Shown here: in pieces, positions 36,993-54,760 of the stretch
Layout of the letters: each line of letters starts with the position of its first letter
Numbering within the stretch: position 1 is the first letter of the stretch
Assembly (NCBI GenBank): GCA_946406115.1
Contig: OX291560.1
Location: forward strand, 8,681,158 to 8,745,157
Reading direction: 5' to 3'
From: Apoda limacodes
Lineage: Eukaryota; Arthropoda; Insecta; Lepidoptera; Limacodidae
DNA: 64,000 nucleotides
The notes under the pieces: generated by a model
The model's input: only the letters and a program-made list of their open reading frames with translations
Told to the model about the DNA's origin: nothing
Databases searched by the model: none
Position numbers and translations under genes: made by a program

Positions 36993-37425
36993 AGAAGGGT
37001 TCTGGGCGTGTTTTCGGAGCTTGCAATTTCTCGCAAATAACGCAAATTTGGCAATGAAGTGTCCACGGAGCTTTGATGGCTAGCAATGATTGCTCGCAAT
37101 TGACAATTGTTCATTCGTTCGTGATTGCATAAGATGCAAACAATACATTTGACAATTGCTGTCACTGTCATTAAAAAAAAAACTGTTTTGTTATAAAACA
37201 GAGACACAAAAATAAGGCAAATGTTAATATTCTTAATATATTTTAAAGTAGTGTGACTGCCATTCATTAAGAAAAGAAAGAAAGAAGACATAGTCATATT
37301 GGTTTACTGCAGTTTGTTGAATTTTACATAAAGCACAGACTTTGAATTTAACCTCCAAATCCAAATCGGTATTAGGCTTTAGTACTATAGAACAAATACA
37401 TATACTAGAAAAGTATAATTGGCCT
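36993..37425. other. possible MITE terminus, otherwise unassigned
   Basis: 'gggcgtgttttcggagc' at 37005 is nearly the complement of 'gtctccgaaaacacgccc' at 48088, suggesting that both are ends of one short repeat family. Boundaries are not clear. Confidence 0.4.
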
Positions 37426-37665
37426 CTCCACGTAGGACGTTGTCGACTACAAAAATGCGTTTGATTCTATCAAGATTCGCTAGTGTTGCAGTCTCTCCAG
37501 CAGTATCCCATTTACTATTGGAACATCAAAGTGTTGGTAGTGTTTGTGTAATAGAGCTACAATGTCTATCCAACTTCAAGGCCAGAACATTAAACAAGTC
37601 CTACAGTAGTGCCTTCAGTTTTAATTTGTCAGACCCTATCTATATTGTACACTGGATTTCTTGAT
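37426..37665 (+). pseudogene. RTE-like RT palm fragment
   Basis: In broken plus-strand frames, VDYKNAFDSI appears near 37440 and ATMSIQLQGQ near 37560. These are the A-box and following strand of RTE reverse transcriptases. Stops in all frames; only about 200 bp is recognisable. Confidence 0.6.
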
Positions 37666-38439
37666 TGGCTGCTTTTATACCAAATTTACATCTATAACTC
37701 CAATAATTCTAGGGCAGCCAGAGGCAATATTAAATGCTTCAGACACCATCAAAACCTCGAAGGGTTTATGCTGTTTGATTTCACAAATGACAAAATGATG
37801 ATTGATATTTATATGACAGTTCTAACATTTGAATACTCTTGGGTTCGCACAAGGTGCACCGTTGGGTTGTAAGACGAAAGTTTCAAAGTCAGCCCAGCGG
37901 CTCGCTTCCGTAAAATGATAGCTAACAATTCTCGTATGAAATACATCGATTGTCGCGAAACCGCATTGTATATCTTATTTCTTTCAAAAAAAGTAAGCAA
38001 TCTTTTACGGAATCGATCCACTGGTAACCTTCAATGCTGTTGATCTCCTTATTTGAAGACGTTAGATTTACCTGTTAAAGACTATAACTCCTTTGTAGTT
38101 TAGTCTTTTATATTATTATCATAACTATGCTGTGAATATTGTCTAGTATATTGAAATTTGTAATATGTACTATAAATAGTGTTCACATTGAAATTATTAT
38201 TATTTTACTTTATCATCACTTCCAACGGTCCTTTTCCTACGGTCAAAGGGGGGTAAAATGGGGGTTCCTACACCTTTTTTTTCATTCTGCATGATAAAGA
38301 AACTGAAGCTGTGTCGTGGTAATTGAAATATAGAGACATTACTAACCATTTTTCACAGTGACATCTGACTAACAGAAATATGCTACTTAATATAATATTC
38401 AGAAACAATTCAGCTCATCCAACTAATATTAAAGTAACG
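37666..38439. other. unassigned stretch
   Basis: A minus-strand frame (38021-37809) has a basic, non-repetitive translation but no motif I recognise. No splice context or repeat partner. The rest is AT-rich. Confidence 0.35.
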
Positions 38440-38755
38440 CTAAAACCGCTGTACCAATTAAGATGAAATTTGGCATGGAGATAGTTTGAGTCTCGGGAAA
38501 GGACATAAGCTTCTTGAAAAAGTTAAGTATGAATCGGCTTTTTTCTATAATTGAGGAGTTGCCGCTGAAATCCTACACTAATAATCGAATTTAGGGTGGG
38601 TGAAACCGTGGGCAAATTTGGCATGGAGATAGTTTGGGTCCGGGGAAGGACATAGGCTACTTGAAGTGTAAGTGGGTTTTTTTTTGTATTATTGAGGAGT
38701 TCCAATGAAATCCTACATTGATAACTAAATTTAGGATGGGTGAAAACAGCAAGTG
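38440..38755 (+). repeat. dispersed repeat, two tandem copies
   Basis: 'aatttggcatggagatagtt' occurs at 38467 and 38616, each followed by a 'ggaaggacata' block, then 'gaggagttgcc' or 'gaggagttcc', 'gaaatcctaca' and 'gggtga'. Same family as 23257-23610 and 9601-9779. Confidence 0.75.
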
Positions 38756-39486
38756 TTTAAAAAAAATTAAACTGCCAAATTCCATCACTAAATCCTACTG
38801 TGGTTTAAAAATATGCATTGATGGAATGCCACCCAATTCAATTGGTGGGCAATCATTGAATCATCCTTTAGGTTTTGTTACACAATTCCTGTTTTTGTGC
38901 AAACTGCATATTTCTCGATCGCGGAATTAATGCAGGAGTAAACCACTAAAATAAGAATTGATACCCGTCTACATGAGCCAAATTTCAATTAAGAATTTTT
39001 ACAGAATAGGGAGTAATAAGGAATAAAACAAAAAAAAAACTGTCTTTCATGTCTATAATATTAACCAGATTACAATTAGAATCATTATAGTAGTGCAAAA
39101 TAATAATTCAAATATTTAAACTTACACCTGATACTTATATTTTGTAATTGCAATTCAATGAGTGCACTGAATCAATGACATCACCATCAAACTCAAGATT
39201 AACACTCCATTTTGCTATTTTGGATTTCATTTTTTTTTTTTTGTCTTTTAATAATTCAAATCTACATATAAATATATAAATCAATCACACTGTTTGAACG
39301 ATCAAAAGCTTATTTTCTTACATACTTTATATATGGTTAAAAAATCAAAAGTTAACTTAGATACATACTTATATTACTTAAACACATGTAACCATCAATA
39401 CTGCTATTAACAATAACATCAATGAACAACCTTCTGAAGAAAAACCAAAAACAAAATAACTAAATAATAATAACAATATATTCTGG
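38756..39486. other. AT-rich stretch, no gene recognised
   Basis: About 730 bp with no convincing coding frame or named repeat, ending at the putative polyadenylation signal of the following minus-strand exon. Confidence 0.4.
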
Positions 39487-39492
39487 TTTATT
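39487..39492 (-). terminator. putative polyadenylation signal
   Basis: AATAAA on the minus strand, twelve bases past the second-frame stop of the Myb/SANT-like exon. Confidence 0.5.
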
Positions 39493-39503
39493 TATAATTT
39501 TAT

Positions 39504-39965
39504 CTACAAGAAATGTCCACAAGACATGTCAATGTTGTCAATGCTGAAGTTAGAAAAATCTTTATGGCGTTTTTCTCTATACTCTTCCACTAATTTAAAT
39601 TGGCAAAGCGCTTCATTCATTTACTTTTTCTTCTGGTAGCCTGACATTTGCATTTATTGTTTGTAAAGGTTCTGTAGTTCTATTGCTTGGTGTTTGTAAA
39701 GCTGTTGTACTATTGCTTGGTGTTGTTGTTTCTATTGCAAGTAGTGAAATGTATGGTTTTCGTGACGACAATTCATTCATAACATTTATATAGATCCATG
39801 TGCGAGGGTCATTGCCGGATTTGCTACTGCGGTCTTTTACTATTTTATGTGTCCTTTTCATCCCGTTTGCCCATTTGCCTATTGCCCTGCTTACCCAATC
39901 CAATGTCAATTCTCTCTTTTTCTTCATGCATTCATGTATCCATCTACTATACGGAGTCTCAGCCT
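39504..39965 (-). pseudogene. Myb/SANT-like terminal exon with apparent frameshift
   Basis: The minus strand has an acceptor ('tctttacag' just above 39965) followed by an open frame ending with TGA at 39613. It contains VSRAIGKWANGMKRTHKIVK, DRSSKSGNDPRTWIYINVMN and ELSSRKPYIS, which resembles the latter half of Myb/SANT-like domains found in many arthropod proteins (KWAN.KKR...K...KSGN...). A Thr/Ser-rich stretch follows. In the +1 frame, coding-like text continues across that stop: ALCQFKLVEEYREKRHKDFS down to a TAG at 39504. AATAAA follows at 39487-39492. A one-base indel near the A-run at about 39622-39628 would join the two. Upstream exons are not identified, so a host pseudogene, an assembly error and a transposon-borne protein are all possible. 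Confidence 0.55.
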
Positions 39966-40366
39966 CTGTAAAGATAAAAATAACACTAGTAAATTATACC
40001 CATAAACAAACACAGAACATTTTTGAATCTGATTATACCGATTGGGACCAGGCCTAGTCTTTCGTTTTGACTTTTCGAACTGATTACCTACCAATCAAAA
40101 TAAATTCATATAGGTACAGTGTAACTTCTATTGAGAATATTAGGGGATATCCTTGTCAAATAACTATTTTTAAAACCACTAAGACAATAAGTGCGTTGCC
40201 GACTAATAAAATGTGCGATAAAAAATGTTCTGTAATGAAATAAAAAGGAAATAATTTCAATTTCTTTATAGTAATTGTTAAAAACTATCTGAAATTAACA
40301 CTTTTAAGACTTAAATTTAATGGCCAATACAGCGAGACTTCAACTTTAAGGTGCAGAAAATGGCCG
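39966..40366. other. upstream of Myb/SANT-like exon; no exon recognised
   Basis: AT-rich, with a diverged 'accactaagacaataag' tail repeat near 40177 and a segment at 40215-40325 that resembles 11320-11430. No exon found. Confidence 0.4.
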
Positions 40367-40705
40367 TTTTTAGGGTTCCGTACCCAGACTGTCCCAACGG
40401 AGCCCTATTACTAAGCCTGCGCTGTCTGTCTGTCCGTCTGTCCGACCATTAAAAGGCTCTATCTTTTAGACTGAAATAGACGCCTGAATTTTTCACAGAA
40501 TATGTGGTATAATGGTGGATTATCTAATAAATAATAAAAAGTTAAAAAAGGTAAAATTTAAGGGGGGTCCCCATACAAGAAATACATTTTCGTTGTTTTT
40601 GCACTATCGTAAAAACAATAATACATACAAACTTCAAATTTGCAGTAAATATTATGAACTCTTAAAGTATATAATAAAAACCGGCCAAGTGTTAGACGGG
40701 CCCAA
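40367..40705 (+). mobile_element. 'agggttccgtacc' family element, copy 1
   Basis: Starts 'tttttagggttccgtaccc', continues 'ggagccctattactaagcct' and a (TCTG)-rich stretch, and ends 'aaaaaccggccaagtg'. This layout is a very common non-autonomous element in moths. The other copies are 42205-42594 (reverse) and 51891-52176. No coding frame. Confidence 0.8.
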
Positions 40706-40773
40706 GTGATTACTATTTTAAATTACCAGTACAGCGCCATCTACGTAATTTACGAACACAAACAAAACAAAAA

Positions 40774-40833
40774 GTGTGCCGCTAAGCGGTCACCCATCCA
40801 AGTACTGACCAAGCCCGACGTTGCTTAACTTTG
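40774..40833 (-). ncRNA. 5S rRNA-derived arm (unit 1, left)
   Basis: The complement reads 'aaagttaagcaacgtcgggc', 'ttggtcagtacttggatggg', 'tgaccgcttagcggcacac'. This aligns with 5S rRNA from the internal promoter's A box to just past the C box (roughly residues 46-103). The 5' half and the last stem strand are absent, so it is not a ribosomal gene. Confidence 0.85.
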
Positions 40834-40954
40834 AATAAAGTTTTCAACAAAACAATGTGTCATTTTACCGTCTAAAATTATACCGTTACAGCGCCATCTA
40901 GCTTACCATTAAGAGAAACAGTAACTATATTTGGTTTGTTGGAAAAGATATTCA

Positions 40955-41012
40955 AAGTTAAGCAACCTCGGGCTTGGTCAGTACTTGGATGGGTGACCAC
41001 TTAGAGGCACAC
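40955..41012 (+). ncRNA. 5S rRNA-derived arm (unit 1, right)
   Basis: Same 5S segment as the left arm in inverted orientation, with small changes ('caacctcgggctt', 'gaccacttagaggc'). A T5 run follows at once at 41013. Confidence 0.85.
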
Positions 41013-41045
41013 TTTTTGTTTTTGTTTGTGTTCGTAAATTACGTA

Positions 41046-41120
41046 AATTTACATGCGTATTATTAACATCGGTCAATTGCAAGTCGGACTAGCGCACCGT
41101 GGATTTCGTACCACGGTTTA
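41046..41120. repeat. spacer S1 of the 5S-armed array
   Basis: Contains 'acatcggtcaattgcaagtc', 'ggactagcgcaccg' and 'gtaccacgg'. It is the inverted copy of the spacer at 41411-41484. The phrase 'agtcggactagcgca' is shared with the 118-bp array and the 'agggttccgtacc' family. Confidence 0.8.
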
Positions 41121-41151
41121 ACGTAATTTACAAAAGCAAACAAAAACAAAA

Positions 41152-41202
41152 GCTAAGCAGTCACCCATCCAAGTATTGACCAAGCCCAACGTTGCTTAAC
41201 TT
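41152..41202 (-). ncRNA. 5S rRNA-derived arm (unit 2, left)
   Basis: Complement reads 'aagttaagcaacgttgggct', 'tggtcaatacttggatgggt', 'gactgcttagct'. Promoter boxes are retained; the terminal 'ggcacac' is deleted. Confidence 0.82.
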
Positions 41203-41317
41203 GGAATATTGTTTACAACAAATACGTTACTGTTTCTCTTAATATGAGCTAGATGGCGCTGTCACGGTATAATTTTAGACGGCAAAATTACACATTGTTT
41301 TGTTGAAAACTATATTC

Positions 41318-41376
41318 AAACTTAAGCAACGTCGGGCTTGGTCAGTACTTGGATGGGTGACCGCTTAGCGGCACAC
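41318..41376 (+). ncRNA. 5S rRNA-derived arm (unit 2, right)
   Basis: Reads 'aacttaagcaacgtcgggct', 'tggtcagtacttggatgggt', 'gaccgcttagcggcacac', followed by T5. This is the arm closest to the normal 5S sequence in the C-box region. Confidence 0.85.
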
Positions 41377-41410
41377 TTTTTGTTTTTGTTTGTGTTCGTA
41401 AATTACGTAA

Positions 41411-41484
41411 AACCGTCGTCCGTAAACCTCGGTGCGCGAGTCAGACTTGCAATTGACCGATGTTAATGTTACGCATGTAAATTT
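41411..41484. repeat. spacer S2 of the 5S-armed array (inverted S1)
   Basis: Complement reads 'aacatcggtcaattgcaagt', 'ctgactcgcgcaccgaggtt', matching S1 (41046-41120) with a few changes. Confidence 0.8.
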
Positions 41485-41516
41485 ACGTTATTTACGAACA
41501 CAAACATTAACAAAAA

Positions 41517-41575
41517 GTGTGCCGGTAAGCGGTCACCCATCTAAGTACTGACCAAGCCCGACGTTGCTTAACTTT
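41517..41575 (-). ncRNA. 5S rRNA-derived arm (unit 3, left)
   Basis: Complement reads 'aaagttaagcaacgtcgggc', 'ttggtcagtacttagatggg', 'tgaccgcttaccggcacac', then T5. Confidence 0.84.
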
Positions 41576-41693
41576 GAATAAAGTTTTCAACAAAACAATA
41601 TGTCATTTACCGTCTAAAATTATACCGTAACAGTGCCATCAAGCTCATTTTAAGAGAAAAAGTAACATATTTGTTTGTTGGAAACAATATCTC

Positions 41694-41751
41694 AAGTTAA
41701 GCAACGCCGGGCTTGGTCAGTACTTGGATGGGTGACTGCTTAACGACACAC
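41694..41751 (+). ncRNA. 5S rRNA-derived arm (unit 3, right)
   Basis: Reads 'aagttaagcaacgccgggct', 'tggtcagtacttggatgggt', 'gactgcttaacgacacac', then T5, G, T5. Confidence 0.84.
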
Positions 41752-41785
41752 TTTTTGTTTTTGTTTGTGTTCGTAAATTGTATGA

Positions 41786-41945
41786 TCACATTTGTTGTAT
41801 GGGAGCCCTCTTCAATATTTATTTTATTCAGTTTTTAGTATTTGTTGTTATAGCGGTAACAGAAATACATCTTCTGTGAAAATTTCAACTGTCTATCAGG
41901 GTTTATGAGATACAGTCTGGAGACAGACGGACCGATTAAATAATT
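41786..41945 (-). mobile_element. fragment of the 'agggttccgtacc' family
   Basis: 'tttgttgttatagcggtaac', 'gaaaatttcaactgtctatc' and 'gagatacagtctgg' are complements, in reverse order, of 51950-52045 in the fuller copy. Lacks both ends. Confidence 0.75.
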
Positions 41946-42204
41946 AGAATTGGTTGTTACCTAGTGCATTGACTATAAGTTGTATCAAAAAGTCATAAAA
42001 AGGTAACTAAAAAATGGATTCCAAACAAAAGGCATCATTATGGCATAAATTACTTAAGAAACGTATAACAAAAACATCTCATAGTAATGTATATGTCATT
42101 ATGTAATGATTTTAAGTACATTTACATGCACGTCGTTAGTATTATAGAAATTAGCTGTCTGGCCTATATCACCCTCATAAGGCAGAAATCAGGAATCCTT
42201 TTTA

Positions 42205-42594
42205 AAAAGAAACCGGCCAAGTGCGAGTCTGGCTCGCGCACCGAGGGTTCCGTGCAAACTTACTATATGTTGTATATTATTAAAAATATTTTGATTATAT
42301 GATGTAACTAAAAATTTATGGCAATTTTTCCTTTATCTGTGCTATAAGACGTTGCTTCGTACCAAATTTCAAGATTCTGAGTTCACGGGAAGTACTCTGT
42401 AGGTTTTGATTTCTTGCGAGTTTCGAAAATTTGCGGCATAAACGGCTGTATCTTTTGATTGCGTTGGCTCAGAAGTTTGATGTTTTCACAGCTCCAAGGG
42501 ACAGGAGACCTGAGTATTTTAGCTTGATACCTCCACGAGTTCCTGAGAAAATAAGGGTTCCAGTTTTTCCTTTCAAGGTACGGAACCCCAAAAA
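42205..42594 (-). mobile_element. 'agggttccgtacc' family element, copy 2
   Basis: Begins 'aaaccggccaagtgcgagtc' and 'ctcgcgcaccgagggttccg', and ends 'ggtacggaaccccaaaaa', the complement of the start of copy 1. Internal sequence differs from copies 1 and 3, so it is a separate subfamily. Antisense open frames over 42380-42690 are not considered genes. Confidence 0.78.
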
Positions 42595-42777
42595 GGTTAA
42601 TTACGCAAGTGCCCAGCTGGTTATTCAGAGGCCTCCCAAGAACTGGATAAATTGCGCTGGAAAAAAAGTCAAATGTCAGTATTGAGATCATCTAAAACAG
42701 CAATGGTAGTTGATAATCGAAACATTTTGAACATATAAAGTAAACATTTAAAACATAAGAATCTACTAATTATTATA

Positions 42778-43046
42778 AACTAGATTTTGCGAGCGGTTAT
42801 CGCCGTAGAACTCTTTAATTATACTAATGTAGTTTGCTACAGCAAGCTACAGCTATAGTTCGTTTAAGCTCGGTTATAGTTATTCCTGCAGGAACTTTTG
42901 AATTTTCGTAATAAAAAGTAACCATGTTCGATTCCAGGACCTATCCTACATACATGTGTGCCACGTTTCATTCAGATCTGTCCAGTGGTTAAAGCGTGAT
43001 TAAGTAACAAACATCCGAAATTTCGCATTTATAATATTAAGTTGGA
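42778..43046 (+). repeat. Metulj-type SINE/RTE-tail repeat
   Basis: 'actagattttgcgagcggtt' at the start, 'gccacgtttcattcagatct' and 'gtccagtggttaaagcgtga' in the middle, and 'atttcgcatttataatatta' at the end. This sequence of landmarks is the common short retroposon tail of moths and butterflies. Confidence 0.75.
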
Positions 43047-43075
43047 TATGGGCATATTAAGTACACTCACACGTT

Positions 43076-43975
43076 AAATGTTAAATGTTATTAACTTATA
43101 TTATGACGATGATGCCAGTTGAGTTGCAGACTGGGTTCGCTCTGCACTTCACCTGAAACAGTGACAAGTTAAGGACTTAGAACAGCTCAGTTGCTATTTC
43201 TATATAAAATTGCTAAATCTGTTAATATAGTAATGATCAAAACAAGGGGCTGACTCTCGACGACAATCCCAATTTCAATCATACGGCACTTTTGTCAATA
43301 CTTTCAAATACTTACATTGTAATTACATTCAGTGGTGTGTAATCTTAATAATACTATTTGATTTTGTTGCATAAAAAGGTTTTATATATTATATGATCGA
43401 TTTATTTGATTCTAAATCAAAGTGAGTGTCGGGAGTTACCCCATATATAACCACATATACTTTGTTGGCAAACAAGTCTCTAATTACTTCTCCCTTGAAG
43501 AACCCCATACTGTAGTCCTTATAGAAAACCTTGGCATGAGTTCATTTCACAATCTTCTTATTTAATTTTAAATAACTTGCCTCTTTTCTGTATTTGAGCT
43601 AAAACAGTTAATCTGAGATTGGTGATTGAACAGTAAGATAGCCCATTTGTGAATGCATATTCATTAAATAAGACATGTTAAATGTTATTAACTTACATAG
43701 TGACGATGATCCCAGTTGAGTTGCAGTCTGGAATTTGCTCTGCACTTCACCTGAAACATTGATAAATTAAGGATTTAGAATAGCATTGTCTAGACTCTTC
43801 TTTCACATCTTTGCCCCTGTTCTGCTTGAATTTAACCAGTTAACTGATGTTTTATCAATGAGTCCATTTGTGTTGCATATATATGCCTATGCAAAATAAA
43901 TTATTTGGACAACTTGCAAAATGTAGATGATCCTTGTTGTGCATTTGCTCTGCACTTTGCTTGAAATAGTAAATT
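43076..43975 (-). repeat. three copies of an exon-like block
   Basis: A block of ~110 bp occurs at 43076-43190 and 43676-43790, and a shorter diverged one at 43915-43975. The first two share 'ttaaatgttattaactta', 'ccagttgagttgcag' and 'gctctgcacttcacctgaaa'. On the minus strand each has an acceptor ('gtttcag') before a ~55-bp segment. In the 43.7-kb copy this ends at a good donor ('gtaagt'); in the 43.1-kb copy the donor has become 'ataagt'. The 55-bp segment is open in two frames. It could be a mini-exon of an unidentified minus-strand gene or just a repeat. Confidence 0.5.
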
Positions 43976-44154
43976 GTAACAGTAAGCATCACAATGAGTT
44001 CACTTAGTGGTATAGTATAAATAACTACAAAGTGGTTAGCCAGAATAACTAAAAAATATCATATTGTATCATTTTTTTTTAAAACATTGGTGAATCCAAG
44101 GTATATTTTTATTGGTACTACTACATTCATATTATACATTTTTTTCTGGACTTA
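43976..44154. other. short unassigned spacer
   Basis: No feature recognised. Confidence 0.3.
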
Positions 44155-44402
44155 ACACAAAAATCATCTGGTCCCAAACTAAGCAAAGCTTGTACTATTG
44201 ACACCAGACAAACCATAACAGAAATATTAACACATATGTAAATTATAAACCTACTTTTTTTTATTTATAAATATTAATAAATATGTATTATACATAGGAA
44301 ACAGTCTCAAGATAAACACAAATTTTCATTACATAAATGTTTGTCATGTGCGGGATCAAGCCTGCACTTCTCGGTTCCGTAGGTAGCTACTACTAGCCAT
44401 GG
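44155..44402 (-). repeat. tRNA-derived SINE
   Basis: On the minus strand the head has 'cttgatcccgcac', a good B-box match, and a poorer A box upstream. The tail at 44160-44225 has 'tctggtgtcaatagtacaag' and 'ctttgcttagtttgggacca' as complements, the usual tail of moth tRNA-derived SINEs. The A box is degenerate. Confidence 0.65.
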
Positions 44403-45229
44403 TTATTGTCTGACCCAAGCTACTTTCCAAGTACACTTTTGCGAAATAAAAGAATAGTGTACCCATTTTTACCTATAGAAAAAGCTATTATTGGCAGCTC
44501 TCAACTGGGATGACCAGTGTGTATAACAAGTATAACAAGATGGTATTTCATATCCTTCTCCATCTCCAACTCATTTTCCAAGTTTAATGAGATAAGATAT
44601 TTAGGTATTTAATTTTTTTAACTAATATAATAAAATCTAACAAAAATAAAAGATTTTACTTAAAATATATTACTAAAATATATATAGTAATATACTTACA
44701 GCATATATATAGTAATATGCTTGTAAATTTAATGCCTAAATAGCATAATAAGAAAAATTTGAGTCATAATATAGGTATTAATGTAAAGAAGTATAAGTAA
44801 TATAAACAACAAGATGAGCCAGGAAGATATTGTATACTCAGTAAAGTTTATCTACATGTTACACAAATAACTATTAATAACCAAGAAACTAAGGATTTTT
44901 TCGAGATTTACTTATTCTCATTATTGAATCACAACTAGGAAAAGTTTTCAACAGCAATATCCCAGCAGAAATGTAAGAGAAAGAATAAAATTTCATGCAA
45001 CATCTAGAATTAAAAAAGTTAAAGCTCCTTATTTACGGTTCTAGTATTTTTCAGTATTCACAGATTGAAAGATTGGACTTTGTGTATTTCCAACTAATTT
45101 TTTATTTATTTGTAAATACAAAAGTAACAATAGTGGATTGGTGAGTGTTATATTTATTTATTAGTTACCTGTCAAAACAATTAATTGTTTGAAGAATTGC
45201 TTTCATTTCAGTATAAGCCAAATCATTTC
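44403..45229. other. AT-rich stretch, no gene recognised
   Basis: About 830 bp with low-complexity A/T composition and no recognised coding or repeat unit. Confidence 0.4.
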
Positions 45230-46000
45230 GCCAGCATCCGTGATGAAAGAGACATGTGTTGAAAAATTTAATATAATATAAAAATGGAAGGCCTCCAAGT
45301 TGGAAAATTTTGGTTTGTTTTACCTAAAACAAAAAAGGGCATCACAACATATAAAACAAACAAACAAGTGTGAGAGAGGATTATACTAAGTGGTGATGGA
45401 CATATTAATGCATGCAAAAGAGTAAAAATTGATATTTTTATATTAAAAGTTTTGATAAATTTTGTTAAACATTTAATGAAGGGGGTATTAATCAAGGATA
45501 GAAGACAATGCATGTTGACAGATCGAGGAATTTTTGGGTGGAGGATGTCATATAGTATATAGGGTATTTGGGGCAGCTGAAAAATATGTAGTCTACAGTA
45601 CCTTCGTCAATGCCACACTCACAAATAGAGTGGTCCCTAACTCTTATTTTAGCTAAAAATACTGGAGTACATGCATGTTCCAGTCTGGGACGGCATATGG
45701 TCGACGTAACTAATTTGTCACAATATTGAATTCGCAAGAACCAAGGTTTTGCAGGGATAACAGGTTGTATTTGGCCATGATAACGGCCCTTAATGGATGA
45801 AGACTGTTTCCATACATGACTCCAATCTACTGACATTGGCCTTTTAGCTGAACTGAGAAAGTCTAAAGAGAAAAGTTTATTGAAGTTTTGTATATCTGAC
45901 TGAACTACTTCTTTAGCCCAGTGGTCAGATTTCTCATTGCCTTCTATTCTACTGTGGCCTAGGACCCAGGCAAGGACAACCTCAATATTAACTTAATAGG
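45230..46000 (-). pseudogene. RNase-H-bearing LINE 3' end
   Basis: Minus-strand frames in order: about 46000-45840 encodes the end of RNase H (VVLAWVLGHSRIEGNEKSDH, with the conserved GH-x-x-x-x-GNE block), then SDIQNFNKLFSLDFLSSAKR. 45836-45560 has the post-RNase-H zinc-binding-type block (RPRLEHACTPVFLAKIRVRD, CECGIDEGTVDYIFFSCPKY). 45513-45400, in another frame, has the C-terminal end (LLSLINTPFIKCLTKFIKTF). Frameshifted once near 45540. The polymerase part is missing. Confidence 0.83.
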
Positions 46001-46139
46001 TTACATGTGTCACTGAGGCCTTCAGTAAACTCCATCACCAAACAATTGGCACACATAAAGAAGCAAACAAGCATACTGCATCAATAATGCAAATAAACTA
46101 AAAATACAATTAATGTTTTAAATAAAAAAATTTTAGTTT
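46001..46139. other. short spacer between LINE remnants
   Basis: AT-rich; no feature recognised. Confidence 0.3.
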
Positions 46140-46765
46140 ACCTATGCATCCTGTAATTGAGCATCATCAGTCCCAAGGATTTTTATCATTTACATAGTCT
46201 GAAATATTGTAGTATGCCTTTTTACACAGTACCTGCTTGATAAAAGATTTAAATTTACTTATTGATAGATTTTGAATTTTATTGGGAACTTTGTTGTAAA
46301 AGTGTATACATTGCCCCATAAAAGAGTTACTTATTTTGTGTAGACGTGTATCATGCACCAACAGCTTATTTTTACTTCTAGTATTTACTTTGTGAACGTC
46401 ACTTTTCTTGCTGAAACTATTGATATTTTTATGTACATATCAAAGATTATCATATATGTACTGCGACACTAAAGTTAAAATTTTTACTTCCCTAAACCTA
46501 TCCCTCAGAGATATCCTAGATCCCAATTTATAAATAGCACGAATTGCCCTGTTTTGTAACAAAAATATTGTATTTACATCAGCAGCGCTACCCCACAATA
46601 GGATACCATATGTCATTAAACTATGGAAATAGCTAAAATATACTATTTTTGCAGTGTCAACATCGGTCAATTGTCTTATTTTCTTGATCGCATACACAGC
46701 AGAGCTAAGTTTTTTGGCTAGGTTATGAATATGAGGACCCCATTGAAGTTTGGAGTCCAGTGTTA
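46140..46765 (-). pseudogene. Jockey/CR1-like LINE C-terminal end
   Basis: Frame 46697-46440 has AIKKIRQLTDVDTAKIVYFS, MTYGILLWGSAADVNTIFLL and QNRAIRAIYKLGSRISLRDR, the RT thumb. Frame 46361-46167 has RLHKISNSFMGQCIHFYNKV, PNKIQNLSISKFKSFIKQVL and the final NDKNPWD. Separated by one frameshift or stop near 46400. Same family as 4549-5830. 5'-truncated at 46765. Confidence 0.84.
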
Positions 46766-47151
46766 TTACGTATTTGAAACACTAAGAAGCAATTTTTGAG
46801 AAGGTAACAATACATTGATTAATTTGTTTTCTTTTTACAGTCCCAGAATATATCCCTCATCATCCAATACAAATAAGAATACTGTATCTATATTTTCTGT
46901 TTCCATAGCTTATTTATTTGTTAAACATATTCCCCACAAATCGGGTCTATAGTGTTCTTGATGCACCAGGTGTACAGAGGCCTTGAAAACTTTATGAGGA
47001 ATAAAAACTGACAACTTACATGGTCATAGTGATGCACCTACCTTCTGCTGAAGATTCAACCGTAGTTTGACTTTCACATGCTCTTACTAGCATCTCTTAC
47101 CAATTTTGCAATTTCGTCCAGTTATTTTTTACTAGGCTACGTTCCAAAACG
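46766..47151. other. unassigned; one candidate minus-strand splice site
   Basis: At 47050 the complement reads 'tcttcagcagaaggtaggtg', which could be an exon end, but no domain or partner exon supports a gene. Confidence 0.3.
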
Positions 47152-47701
47152 CAATGTGTAAGTTGAAAAAGTAGTTATGGAACGCCCGGCTCAGGGTAAC
47201 TTTCTATCTGTCAAGTTGAATATTTTACACTAGGGCTATGTTCCAAATCACGCCGAGTAATTATCGCCCGGTAAAGTGGAAAAATCAACCCGTTCGGGAA
47301 CGAGCGTTTGACAGTTAATTTTCAAACTTACAGGAGTGATTTTCAACCTTTTCTATGGCAGTGTAAAGAATTCAACTTGACAGTTGGAAAATTACTCTAC
47401 CCTGGGCGTCCCAAAACCACTTTTTTAACTTCCTCGTCGCGATTTGGATCGCACCCTAGGCTATGTCCCAAAACCCACCGAGTAATTATCGCCCGGTATT
47501 GACAGTTAATTTTCACACTGACAAGAGTGAATATCAACCTTTCTATGTCAGTTTAAGGAATTCAATTTAACAGTTGGAAAATATCCAACCCCGGGCGTCC
47601 AAAAACCACTTTTTTAACGTCTTTGTTGCAATTTGGAACGGGTTGGAAATCAACTATAGCGGGCGATTGTCACTCGGCAGGGAATTGGAACGTAGCCCCA
47701 G
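47152..47701 (+). mobile_element. cluster of TA-flanked MITEs
   Basis: One element runs 47233-47455: it starts 'gggctatgttccaaatc', its end as complement reads 'gggtgcgatccaaatc', and TA lies on both sides (47231-47232 and 47456-47457). A second starts directly at 47458 ('ggctatgtcccaaaacccac') and ends near 47699 with 'attggaacgtagcccc', the complement of the same start. A lone terminus ('ggctacgttccaaaacgc') is at 47153. The interiors share 'aattatcgcccgg' and 'cttgacagttggaaaat' with 7826-8030. TA targets suggest mobilisation by a Tc1/mariner-type transposase. Confidence 0.75.
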
Positions 47702-48483
47702 TACGTATATGACAAAGCAATTAGGTGCTTATCACAAGAAAATAATGATTTACGTTGTTACCACGAAATGCACGCTCCTGTTTTCTAACGTTAAAGATAC
47801 TGTATAAATTGTATCCGTTTATTCATAATAATAATTTTTTCAAAGACCTTGCTTTTTATCCATTACTTTATCTTTTGCAAAACAATCCGAAATCTATTAA
47901 ACAAGCAAGCAATTTGTGTTTTTCACGACACACAACTTTGAACTGATAGCTGACAGCTGTCAATAGTAAAAAAAAAATATTGAAAGCAAACAACGCAATA
48001 ACCTGTTTTTTTTGCCACCGTGCAATAAGCTACGAAAACACTTATTGCTTTCATTGCGTTCATTTGCACGCAATACAATCGCAATGGTCTCCGAAAACAC
48101 GCCCTTAAGTGTGGATTTAAACAATGGAGACGTGTTTTTGCTTGTTTTTTTTAAAAATTAGTTTAACAGGATTCGATGACAAATTTCAACAGATTTTACG
48201 AAGATCTGTAAAGAATTATGCATTGAAGACTTATAGAGGATGAAATGAAAACAATAAGCAAGTAACGGCGAGCAAAATTGTGATAATTTTCAATTAGAGC
48301 TTAGACGAATTGATGATTTTTGGCGTCATAATGTGTCTATGCTAGGGTATTTGGATTCAATTTCCAACAGCCTTCCAAACCTATGATGAAAACTGGACAA
48401 ATTAAAAAAAAAAAAAATGTAAAAGTTATTGTTGAAAATAATTAATTTTATATCACAATTGAAATTGTCTATCCAGTTCGATA
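47702..48483. other. SCOC upstream region with repeat remnants
   Basis: Contains a terminus-like 'gtctccgaaaacacgccc' at 48088 (see 37005) and the presumed SCOC promoter and leader. No TATA box or initiator could be singled out, and a non-coding leader exon may exist. Confidence 0.35.
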
Positions 48484-50619
48484 ATGTCATCAATTGTGCA
48501 GAACAATAAATGTAATGATGACAATATACCTTTGGCTGATGATGATCCGCAAGTTATAATAACTGATGATGTTGAAAACAACCATTTAGATCACGGTCGT
48601 TCAATGGACTCCTTACCCAGCTCTTACACTGGTGGTTCTTCTAGCCCTGGGTTAAACGGACCTCATAGCTTCGAACCAGATTGTGCACTTGACGAACAAG
48701 AAGATAAAGCGCGACTTATATCTCAAGTGCTAGAACTGCAAAACACTTTGGATGGTAAATATAAATTCTTTAGTAGGCCCTGTAGTAGGGACTATGTGGA
48801 ATTGAATTGATTTTTGACTAGGCGTCAAGATTTGATTATTTTCTTACACACTTGGGGTGGGTTTAAATTGCGTTTTGGCTATGATTCATATTTTTACGTA
48901 TAATAAAATAAATGCAAAAGCAGCCGACGCCCTCCAGCCACCAAGCGGGCGTCAGAGTGGTAGTACCAATGGCTTTCCCAGAAGGGAAATCCCTAACTCG
49001 AGACCCAATGTCTCCTTAGACTTGTGGGTCGAGTTAGTAGTAGAAGTATAAGAAGTAATAGTACAGATTGCCTATGTCTACAGCATATGAATATTACGAC
49101 AATTAGAAGACCTTCGTCTAACTTTCTAATGCAAAGAGCAGTCTGACTAGATTAGACATAGTCTAAATGCAATTTTACTAAAACTGGCTGCTTCTTCACA
49201 TATTTTGTTCTGATTGAACCAAATTGTACACATTTACATTAGCTTCTATTTGTTGCGTTATCTGTGTTTTCTTGGTTAGAAATGAAAGGCACTTACAATT
49301 AGCCTAAGAGGGATATGTAAGTTTTACTTGCTAACAGATACCTGGAATATCTATTGTAGAAAATATACAGTCAAGATTACTTTAACAAATGTGTTTATAC
49401 TCAATGACAGCAATTATGTAGATTAATTTGACTATAGGGGTAAAAGAAACCCTGTGGAGGAGGGAGGCATGCAAACCCCTAATTTTTAAACACTCATGCA
49501 CATTATTTGACAAGATTTAACTACAATTTAATAAAAACAATTTAAAAGATTCAACAAGAGTTTCAATTATGTGACAACTCTTACATTATATGTGAGAAGA
49601 AAAAACATATAAAGTGTGTTGGTTGAGATTCATTCACTCCAAACTAAATATATCTTTATTTACTATTTATTTTCCTTTATATATCCTTTATATTATCTTG
49701 AACACTTAATACTACTTACACTTTAAAAAATTACTTCAAGAAGTAAATTAGAATTTTTGCTAATCTCTCTGGGGAGATGAAGGATGATTTCCCTGAGATT
49801 TGCATCTGTCTATATATAATTAATTAAGTAGGTAATTAAATTATTTTAACCTGAACAATTGTAGGCAAAATCGTTTGTGTGCAAATTTTATTAGTGTCAC
49901 ATTTTTATTCCCATCTCTGTCACAGAATTTACCTAAACCTCTTCAAAAATACTAAAATAGTTTTCATAATGGCAAACTTATTTTCCTTTAATTGATATGC
50001 ATTTTATACCTCCATTCTTAAGGTAGAGAGACTGCCTGCTGTGCAGAGTGCGTGGGTTTGATCCTTGCTCAGGAAAAATGTTAATGTGATGAACATTTGT
50101 TATTGTCTTAAGTTTAAGTATGTATTAAGCAAAAAAAGTATATTGATAGCAGATAGCGCTGTGTGGGATGTCTAGGATATTTATTTTACAATTTTTATAT
50201 TATTTTGAAGATACGGCTCTGCTGTAAGATTTAAAACTCTTATGTTGCCTCGTCAGTGTTTTGTTATTTTAAAGCAATTTATGTGCTTTATAGTAACATT
50301 ATAGGAACAGTCATTGATTATGGAACTTATCATTCTCATTTAACTTCAAAACATTTCACACAACAATTATATTACATAAGAGAACATTTTTACATAAGTC
50401 CTTATTTATTAAAATGAATGTGGAATGTTTTAAAACAATGCAGTGTATTGGATGAGCTAAATATGTCTTTTATTTTTAGATCTTTCACAAAGAGTGGATT
50501 CTGTTAAAGAAGAGAACCTAAAACTTCGGTCGGAAAATCAAGTTTTAGGACAATATATAGAGAATCTTATGTCTGCGTCATCAGTTTTTCAGTCAACTAC
50601 AGCCAATGTCAAGAAATAG
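48484..50619 (+). CDS. SCOC: short coiled-coil protein (SCOC)
   Basis: SCOC family proteins are small Golgi and endosomal coiled-coil proteins that bind Arl1-class GTPases and act in autophagy regulation. Two exons: 48484-48754 (starting ATG) and 50480-50619 (ending TAG), joined at GT/AG with the split codon GAT, giving 136 residues. The N-terminal ~75 residues are acidic and disordered-looking. From about residue 80 the sequence reads [20 protein letters not shown] then [20 protein letters not shown] and [12 protein letters not shown], which closely matches the conserved coiled coil of animal SCOC. The heptad pattern is unbroken across the junction. AATAAA follows at 50640-50645. The 1.7-kb intron contains a tRNA-derived SINE near 50020-50200. 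No damage is visible, so it is probably functional. Confidence 0.95.
48895..49060 (+). repeat. GC-richer repeat-like insert in SCOC intron
   Basis: 'cagccgacgccctccagcca' to 'gtctccttagacttgtgggt' stands out from the AT-rich intron and has an inverted motif ('gacgccc' and 'gggcgtc') plus 'ggctttcccagaagggaaat'. It is likely a short retroposed repeat, but no partner exists in this window. Confidence 0.45.
50018..50200 (+). repeat. tRNA-derived SINE in SCOC intron
   Basis: 'aaggtagagagactgcctgc' resembles an A box and 'gtgggtttgatccttgctca' a B box, ~35 bases apart as in tRNAs. The body continues 'gttaatgtgatgaacatttg', typical of moth SINEs. The anticodon arm is not conserved, so it is not a tRNA gene. 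Confidence 0.65.
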
Positions 50620-51890: not shown

Positions 51891-52176
51891 TTTTTAGGGT
51901 TCCGTACCTAAAGGGTAAAAAACGGGACCCTATTACTAAGACTCCGCTGTCCGTCCGTCTGTCACCAGGCTGTATCTCATGAACCGTGATAGTTAGACAG
52001 TTGAAATTTTCATAGAAATACTTCTGTTGCCGCTATAACAACAAATACTAAAAAACAGAATAAAACAAATATTTAATCGGGGCTCCCATACAACAAACGT
52101 AATTATTTTTCCGTTTTTATAGATAATAAATACGGAACCGTTCGTTCGCGAGCCCGAGTCGCACTTGGCTGATTTT
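51891..52176 (+). mobile_element. 'agggttccgtacc' family element, copy 3
   Basis: Starts 'tttttagggttccgtaccta', has 'gggaccctattactaagact', 'ggctgtatctcatgaaccgt', 'cagttgaaattttca' and 'tgccgctataacaacaaata', and ends 'gcgagcccgagtcgcacttg'. The end is the complement of 'caagtgcgagtcggactcgc' with changes, so terminal parts are inverted as expected. Confidence 0.82.
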
Positions 52177-54229: not shown

Positions 54230-54760
54230 ATAAAAAGAAGAAATTGGCTGTCAGGGATTTAATGTCATACGAGTTTGAATGCACAGCTCAAATCGCTGAT
54301 GGGTCTAGAAACTTGAAATTTGTCATGTGGGTTCCTTACTTGATGTAGGGCTCCAGTAAGCACGGATTTTACAAAATTCATCCCCTAAAGGAGTAGAATG
54401 GGGTTGCAAGTGTGTAAGAAAATCCGTCAATTTTTTAGGGTAAACGCCGCAGATTGTTTTCATTCAAAATTAATTTTTGCCATAATCTCCGAAGTTCCTT
54501 TACTTTCTCATAAAACCAAAAACCGCGATTACTTAATTTTTTGTTCTTTTTTTTTTAAGAAGAAAATACAAGGGGATTATGGCAAATCATTTTGTATGAA
54601 AAACAATCCACGGCGTTTACCCTGAAATGCATAAAAATCCTTTATTTTGATAATTAGGATTGACCTTTTTTAGAAATAAATTATCCCCTAGGGGGGAAAA
54701 GGAATGAAAATTCGTATGTAAATTACGATTTTTTTGTAGGTAACTCCATACGCAGTCAAA
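54230..54760 (+). repeat. dispersed repeat of unknown class
   Basis: 'cttgaaatttgtcatgtggg', 'ttccttacttgatgtagggc' and 'cccctaaaggagtagaatgg' follow a layout seen repeatedly in insect intergenic DNA. 'agggtaaacgccgcag' (54438) and 'cggcgtttaccct' (54611) are inverted copies. The interior (54460-54600) is unassigned. Confidence 0.45.

Follow-up and report, generated by a model that had tools for sequence, protein, structure and literature searches.

An array of outward-reading 5S promoter boxes in a moth TIR transposon, probably assembled from fragments of a dispersed repeat

A 64-kb stretch of the Apoda limacodes genome (64,000 nucleotides of contig C23, hereafter the window; the genome comprises 800 Mb in 31 contigs) contains, at 40742-41779, an array of three units separated by spacers of about 70 bp, each unit having two arms with similarity to 5S rRNA. 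The locus raises the question of what such an arrangement represents: a piece of 5S rDNA, a mobile element with captured 5S DNA, a two-promoter unit that makes short RNAs, or an assembly of repeat fragments. Here, we report a computational analysis of the array, the transposon in which it resides and the dispersed repeat from which its arms appear to derive.

Arm alignments confirmed the predicted arrangement of three units with two inverted, outward-reading arms each (Table 1). Unit 2 and spacer 2 are inverted with respect to unit 1 and spacer 1, such that the array in the window alternates. As the reference we used the host's own 5S gene (locus L039), a member of the 5S array located on C26. 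In a search of the 64-kb window, all six arms matched this gene solely within positions 49-94, over 43-46 bases with 1-3 mismatches (93-98% identity; E values of 1.6e-12 to 4.2e-19, scored against the 64-kb window), and no 5S match was found in the window beyond the six arms at E 0.01. Positions 49-94 correspond to the A box and the intermediate element plus the greater part of the C box. The claim that the arms carry the 5S internal promoter region was thus upheld by the six-arm alignment, although the 5S part is shorter than the approximately 55 bases per arm originally proposed. The T5 runs described outside five of the arms are present, starting about 12 bases past 5S position 94, and the sixth arm (2L) has indeed lost bases, with a deletion of about 8 bases past its 5S part and a first T run of four T.

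Table 1. Positions, in the window, of the host transposon, the array and the adjoining repeat sequences.
Feature	Position	Strand	Description
Host element	37004-48104		11.1-kb copy of a TIR transposon (apparently non-autonomous); span common to copies on C24, C2, C12, C5, C4 and C18
Left terminal inverted repeat	37004-37019	+	16 bp, perfect
Right terminal inverted repeat	48089-48104	-	16 bp, perfect
Open frame of host element	39613-39993	-	126 aa
Left flank	40367-40743	+	Upstream body of S5; matches dispersed S5 copies; S5 2-169 maps to 40586-40743
Unit 1	about 40742-41047		Two inverted arms, both outward-reading
Arm 1L	40737-40860	-	5'-truncated S5 193-314, inverted; 5S 49-94 at 40786-40831
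Arm 1R	40881-41048	+	S5 150-312; 5S 49-92 at 40955-40998
Unit 2	about 41118-41411		Two inverted arms, both outward-reading
Arm 2L and spacer 1	41070-41269	-	S5 150-362, inverted; 5S 49-91 at 41160-41202
Arm 2R and spacer 2	41290-41459	+	S5 193-362; 5S 52-94 at 41322-41364
Unit 3	about 41481-41785		Two inverted arms, both outward-reading
Arm 3L	41481-41603	-	S5 193-312, inverted; 5S 49-94 at 41529-41574
Arm 3R	41623-41779	+	S5 150-304; 5S 49-91 at 41694-41736
Right flank	41785-41960	-	Part of common R repeat, inverted; local alignment to R consensus

The array is not an ordinary 5S rDNA cluster, as had been anticipated: the real 5S array stands on C26, where 46 of the 47 scored matches lie and the genes are complete at 119 bp, and the window has only the short matches given above. 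A single complete, top-scoring 5S gene is also found on C1 (G000:C1:46725906-46726024), away from the 46 on C26. The 5S covariance model scored 27.3 bits over the array, under its 38-bit cut-off, and the miRNA families MIR5998 and MIR1435 were rejected with scores of 66.9 and 41.3 bits against cut-offs of 180 and 94, respectively. Elsewhere in the window, a long near-perfect hairpin at 54432-54628 has weak matches to miRNA models, far under the cut-off, and a short hairpin at 769-843 matches a miRNA model, also under the cut-off.

The suggestion that the array is located in a DNA element was borne out by the 11.1-kb TIR copy that surrounds it. Sister copies end in the same terminal inverted repeats as the window copy, and all four sister copies in which both ends were seen have matching 3-bp flanks (TTA, TAA, TTA and AAA). 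No matching 3-bp flanks were found at 37004 and 48104 for the window copy, though its divergence from sister copies with such flanks is just about 0.5%. Six copies, including that of the window, differ by a mean of 0.5-0.6% (range 0.1-1.0%) in two blocks outside the array; this low divergence indicates that the family moved recently, and judged by these sequences the TIR transposon family carrying the array is young. PIF/Harbinger elements have a 3-bp TWA target duplication and encode the Harbinger transposase and a Myb-like protein. The host element is similar to these in its short TIRs starting with GGG and its AT-rich 3-bp flank matches, but differs in that no transposase was recognised by Pfam in the four window frames scanned. 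Its 126-aa frame had no Pfam match at E 0.1 and no homologue at E 0.001. Inside the element, the minus-strand frames at 45492-45992 and 46170-46781 appear by eye to be remnants of a LINE reverse transcriptase and RNase H, with the Pfam RNase_H model reaching E 0.034 at best, under the cut-off. Just outside the element, a 115-aa open frame on the plus strand (48463-48810) may be a host exon. On C24 (L009-L013, G000:C24:19438489 onwards), three element copies stand in head-to-tail tandem at a spacing of about 12 kb, and at the two junctions seen, a right end that lacks some 50 terminal bp runs directly into the left end of the following copy.

A genome search with the 1039-bp array gave at least 128 matches, with 40 of 5520 candidates scored. 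We compared 19 sequences, namely that of the window and 18 from among the matches listed (roughly half of the places). In all 18, the units lie inside the same TIR element or its broken fragments; these include ten regions that all show element sequence beside the array, two of them (L037 and L038) being broken fragments of the element. Among the 19 sequences, the arrays hold one to four units in differing orientations: eight share a common four-unit arrangement, one (L031) has a single unit, and another (L034) is a plain direct array in which all units and both spacers have the same orientation. Flips of units and spacers between the long inverted arms, together with gain and loss between direct repeats, would produce this range of arrays.

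The consensus of the arm box set is identical to the host 5S gene at 45 of 46 positions, and at 5S position 68 a T stands in place of the host gene's G in every one of the 125 element-family arms that the 19 sequences contain. Allowing up to three mismatches, a 29-base box pattern with this T has 3444 occurrences across the 800-Mb genome (reversed control: 0), which is an upper figure for the repeat described below as it includes TIR-element arms and true 5S genes, the latter being one base off the pattern. The exact places listed numbered 100, of which 61 were away from known element arrays by our own sorting, and 20 of these were fetched. All 20 have the same leader and boxes, and most also have in common the upstream body, the T-run and a GGCCGG-like motif at the 3' end. 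In eight of the ten loci extended upstream, the shared sequence begins at the counterpart of window position 40361-40367, and the length is 501-594 bp in the seven of ten loci with both ends placed (one 3' end is doubtful). These loci define a dispersed repeat, which we name S5, that measures about 0.5-0.6 kb and has a single 5S-like promoter box set in the middle of its body. Words shared between the two flanks of seven S5 loci reached at most 4-9 bases, similar to a mismatched-pair control, in a test for the target duplications of about 5-20 bp expected of a 5S-derived SINE. By eye, the antisense strand of S5 hinted at a tRNA-like head; this was rejected, as an Rfam scan of 10 S5 loci gave no tRNA at E 5.

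We built a consensus of S5 from the 20 loci, none of them in the window; it aligns with the left flank of the array, with each of the six arms and with the two spacers. The breakpoints recur, at S5 position 150 or 193 on the inner side of the arms and at 304-314 or 362 on the outer side. The right flank belongs to a second common repeat, R, which has end sequences in common with S5; none of 300 shuffles aligned locally as well to the R consensus, built from seven R copies. A further R copy is present at 51891-52176. On this comparison, the arms are fragments of the abundant dispersed repeat S5 and not direct captures of 5S DNA. The proposal that a transposon had captured 5S DNA was thus not borne out. 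The opposing possibility, that the arms are just scattered 5S pseudogenes with no unit boundary, is correct in that the arms come from a scattered 5S-like sequence, but that sequence is a repeat with shared boundaries and has a two-armed relative at two of the 20 loci. The original view that the units are not head-to-tail 5S SINEs stands: a 5S-headed SINE is not supported, as S5 has its boxes in mid-body and extends upstream of them in the eight loci noted above.

A related two-armed form is also found outside the transposon. At L040 and L049, a second, inverted arm is present about 250 bp upstream, a count of two among 20 loci that were chosen for exact box matches; in L054, a weak inverted arm lies on the downstream side. 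An alignment of L040 with L049 extends over 304 bp at 75% and takes in the linker, while the similarity between unit 1 and L049 is found on either side of a part of the linker that is absent from unit 1. The simplest reading of these alignments is that a two-armed S5 would have spread earlier and that the window unit would be its shortened relative. The two-armed unit is thus probably an S5 derivative that was later multiplied by recombination inside the transposon.

We consider it likely that the locus is a recombination-made array of fragments of the 5S-promoter-bearing repeat S5, carried as a passenger in a young TIR transposon family. A second, 5'-truncated S5 would have joined head to head with a first, a two-armed form to which L040 and L049 are related; the resulting unit, together with an S5 3' end, would then have been multiplied. 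Units and spacers would have been flipped, and their numbers altered, by recombination between long repeats, both inverted and direct, and the transposon would have spread the resulting array. All of its parts are of known kinds, namely a promoter-bearing repeat, head-to-head joining, local multiplication and TIR carriage. Counting against this account are the unmatched flanks of the window copy, the small base of two in 20 loci for the two-armed form elsewhere, the near gap-free state of the boxes, their lower divergence compared with the middle and right part of the unit centre, and the higher conservation seen at the leader and A box of dispersed S5 copies, in a sample that is biased.

The last three observations bear on a functional reading, in which each unit would be a two-promoter non-coding RNA unit with live type-1 Pol III promoters and transcripts running from the unit centre outward for roughly 115 nt to the T-runs. 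The box set is nearly intact, with the intermediate element unchanged in 117 of the 120 complete arms (of 125) and T5 the longest T-run within 30 bases in 116 of them, and the coordinates suggest a unit centre long enough for two leaders. Dispersed S5 copies agree with their consensus at 90.8% in that portion of the A box not covered by the search pattern, at 93.5% in the preceding 25 bases and at 88.6% in the 25 before these, compared with 80.4-86.5% in the remaining sequence; this could hint at a conserved leader, in a sample biased by its choice on the box pattern and in which the A box is equalled in conservation by 48 of 308 windows. Against this reading, diversity in the boxes of orthologous arms is not lower than in the flanks, being 0.0158 against 0.0108 for the left arms (19 copies) and 0.050 against 0.011 for the right arms (17 copies), where the neighbouring arm parts are raised as well (0.041 and 0.059), perhaps from exchange between units. 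As the copies are young, this test of conservation has little power. Between units of the same copy (55 of 64 units, truncated ones left out), the boxes differ by 3.9% and 8.0%, resembling the outer arm ends at 4.8% and 7.1%, while the three parts of the unit centre differ by 5.0%, 9.7% and 17.2%, such that box divergence is below that of the middle and right parts of the centre. Gap cells between units number 0 and 3 in the boxes; the left outer end has 0 and the other 308, and the three parts of the centre have 42, 107 and 163. The substitutions therefore show no promoter-specific constraint; at most, the whole arm is held more than much of the centre. Flips and changes in unit number are also tolerated among arrays. 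A working two-promoter unit is, on these comparisons, unlikely. We favour a passenger, as box diversity is not under flank diversity and between-unit divergence is like that of the outer arm ends; the boxes may still bind TFIIIA but are most likely of no use to the transposon.

It is quite unlikely that the two-armed unit is an independent mobile family, for instance a MITE or foldback whose arms hold 5S boxes, that inserted into the TIR element. Starting at the boxes and going outward, its arms are almost identical, and two-armed relatives are present at L040 and L049, as such a family would have, but the arms are S5 fragments and S5 sequence continues past the unit at the left flank and in the spacers, where no precise ends of its own were seen. 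No target duplication was seen around the unit, and the confinement of all 18 further sequences to the TIR element or its fragments also speaks against a mobile family of approximately 300 bp with its own ends. Direct capture from a 5S gene by the transposon is highly improbable, for although the consensus box set resembles the host gene at all but one base, nothing outside 5S 49-94 is clearly similar, and S5, which has the same leader, outer end and T at 68, matches the arms over more of their length than 5S does and largely contradicts a capture. An origin of the arms from a whole 5S gene with internal deletions was likewise rejected: the left arm has only a 9-base leader match, equalled by 20 of 2000 shuffles, and the right arm and both 3' sides match 5S no better than shuffles.

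Lepidopteran 5S-derived SINEs have been described in HaSE3 (PMC3272025) and PxSE4/PxSE5 (PMC8010984), whose published descriptions give the 5S part as a 5' head and a LINE-like 3' end. S5 is similar to these in being dispersed, in having the 5S A, intermediate element and C boxes, and in that likeness to 5S is highest in the promoter region. It is set apart by the same descriptions in having its boxes in mid-body, preceded by over 400 bp of sequence that the copies have in common. The host element can be compared with MER6, a MITE with a SINE-derived V domain (PMC6887750), as both are DNA transposons that carry and spread a sequence related to another class of repeat, but the abstract on MER6 describes neither a Pol III promoter array nor inverted multiplication. 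A two-armed 5S unit was not described in the open-licence titles and abstract openings searched, which is no proof of novelty.

A broader role for S5 is rather unlikely: it would be a mobile family responsible for placing as many as a few thousand type-1 (5S, TFIIIA-dependent) box sets genome-wide, with a two-armed, divergent-promoter subfamily, boxes that are perhaps live (giving short RNAs or a TFIIIA soak) and a TIR transposon that is perhaps a vehicle concentrating up to eight of them per copy. The array is most likely an unusual variant and a passenger. In the descriptions cited above, 5S-derived repeats are SINE heads, whereas the promoter of S5 stands in mid-body. This mid-body 5S promoter, its head-to-head form and its multiplication in a transposon would offer a natural way to test if stray TFIIIA boxes give rise to transcripts or are bound and nothing more, and the array shows how palindromic promoter arrays can arise via recombination inside transposons.
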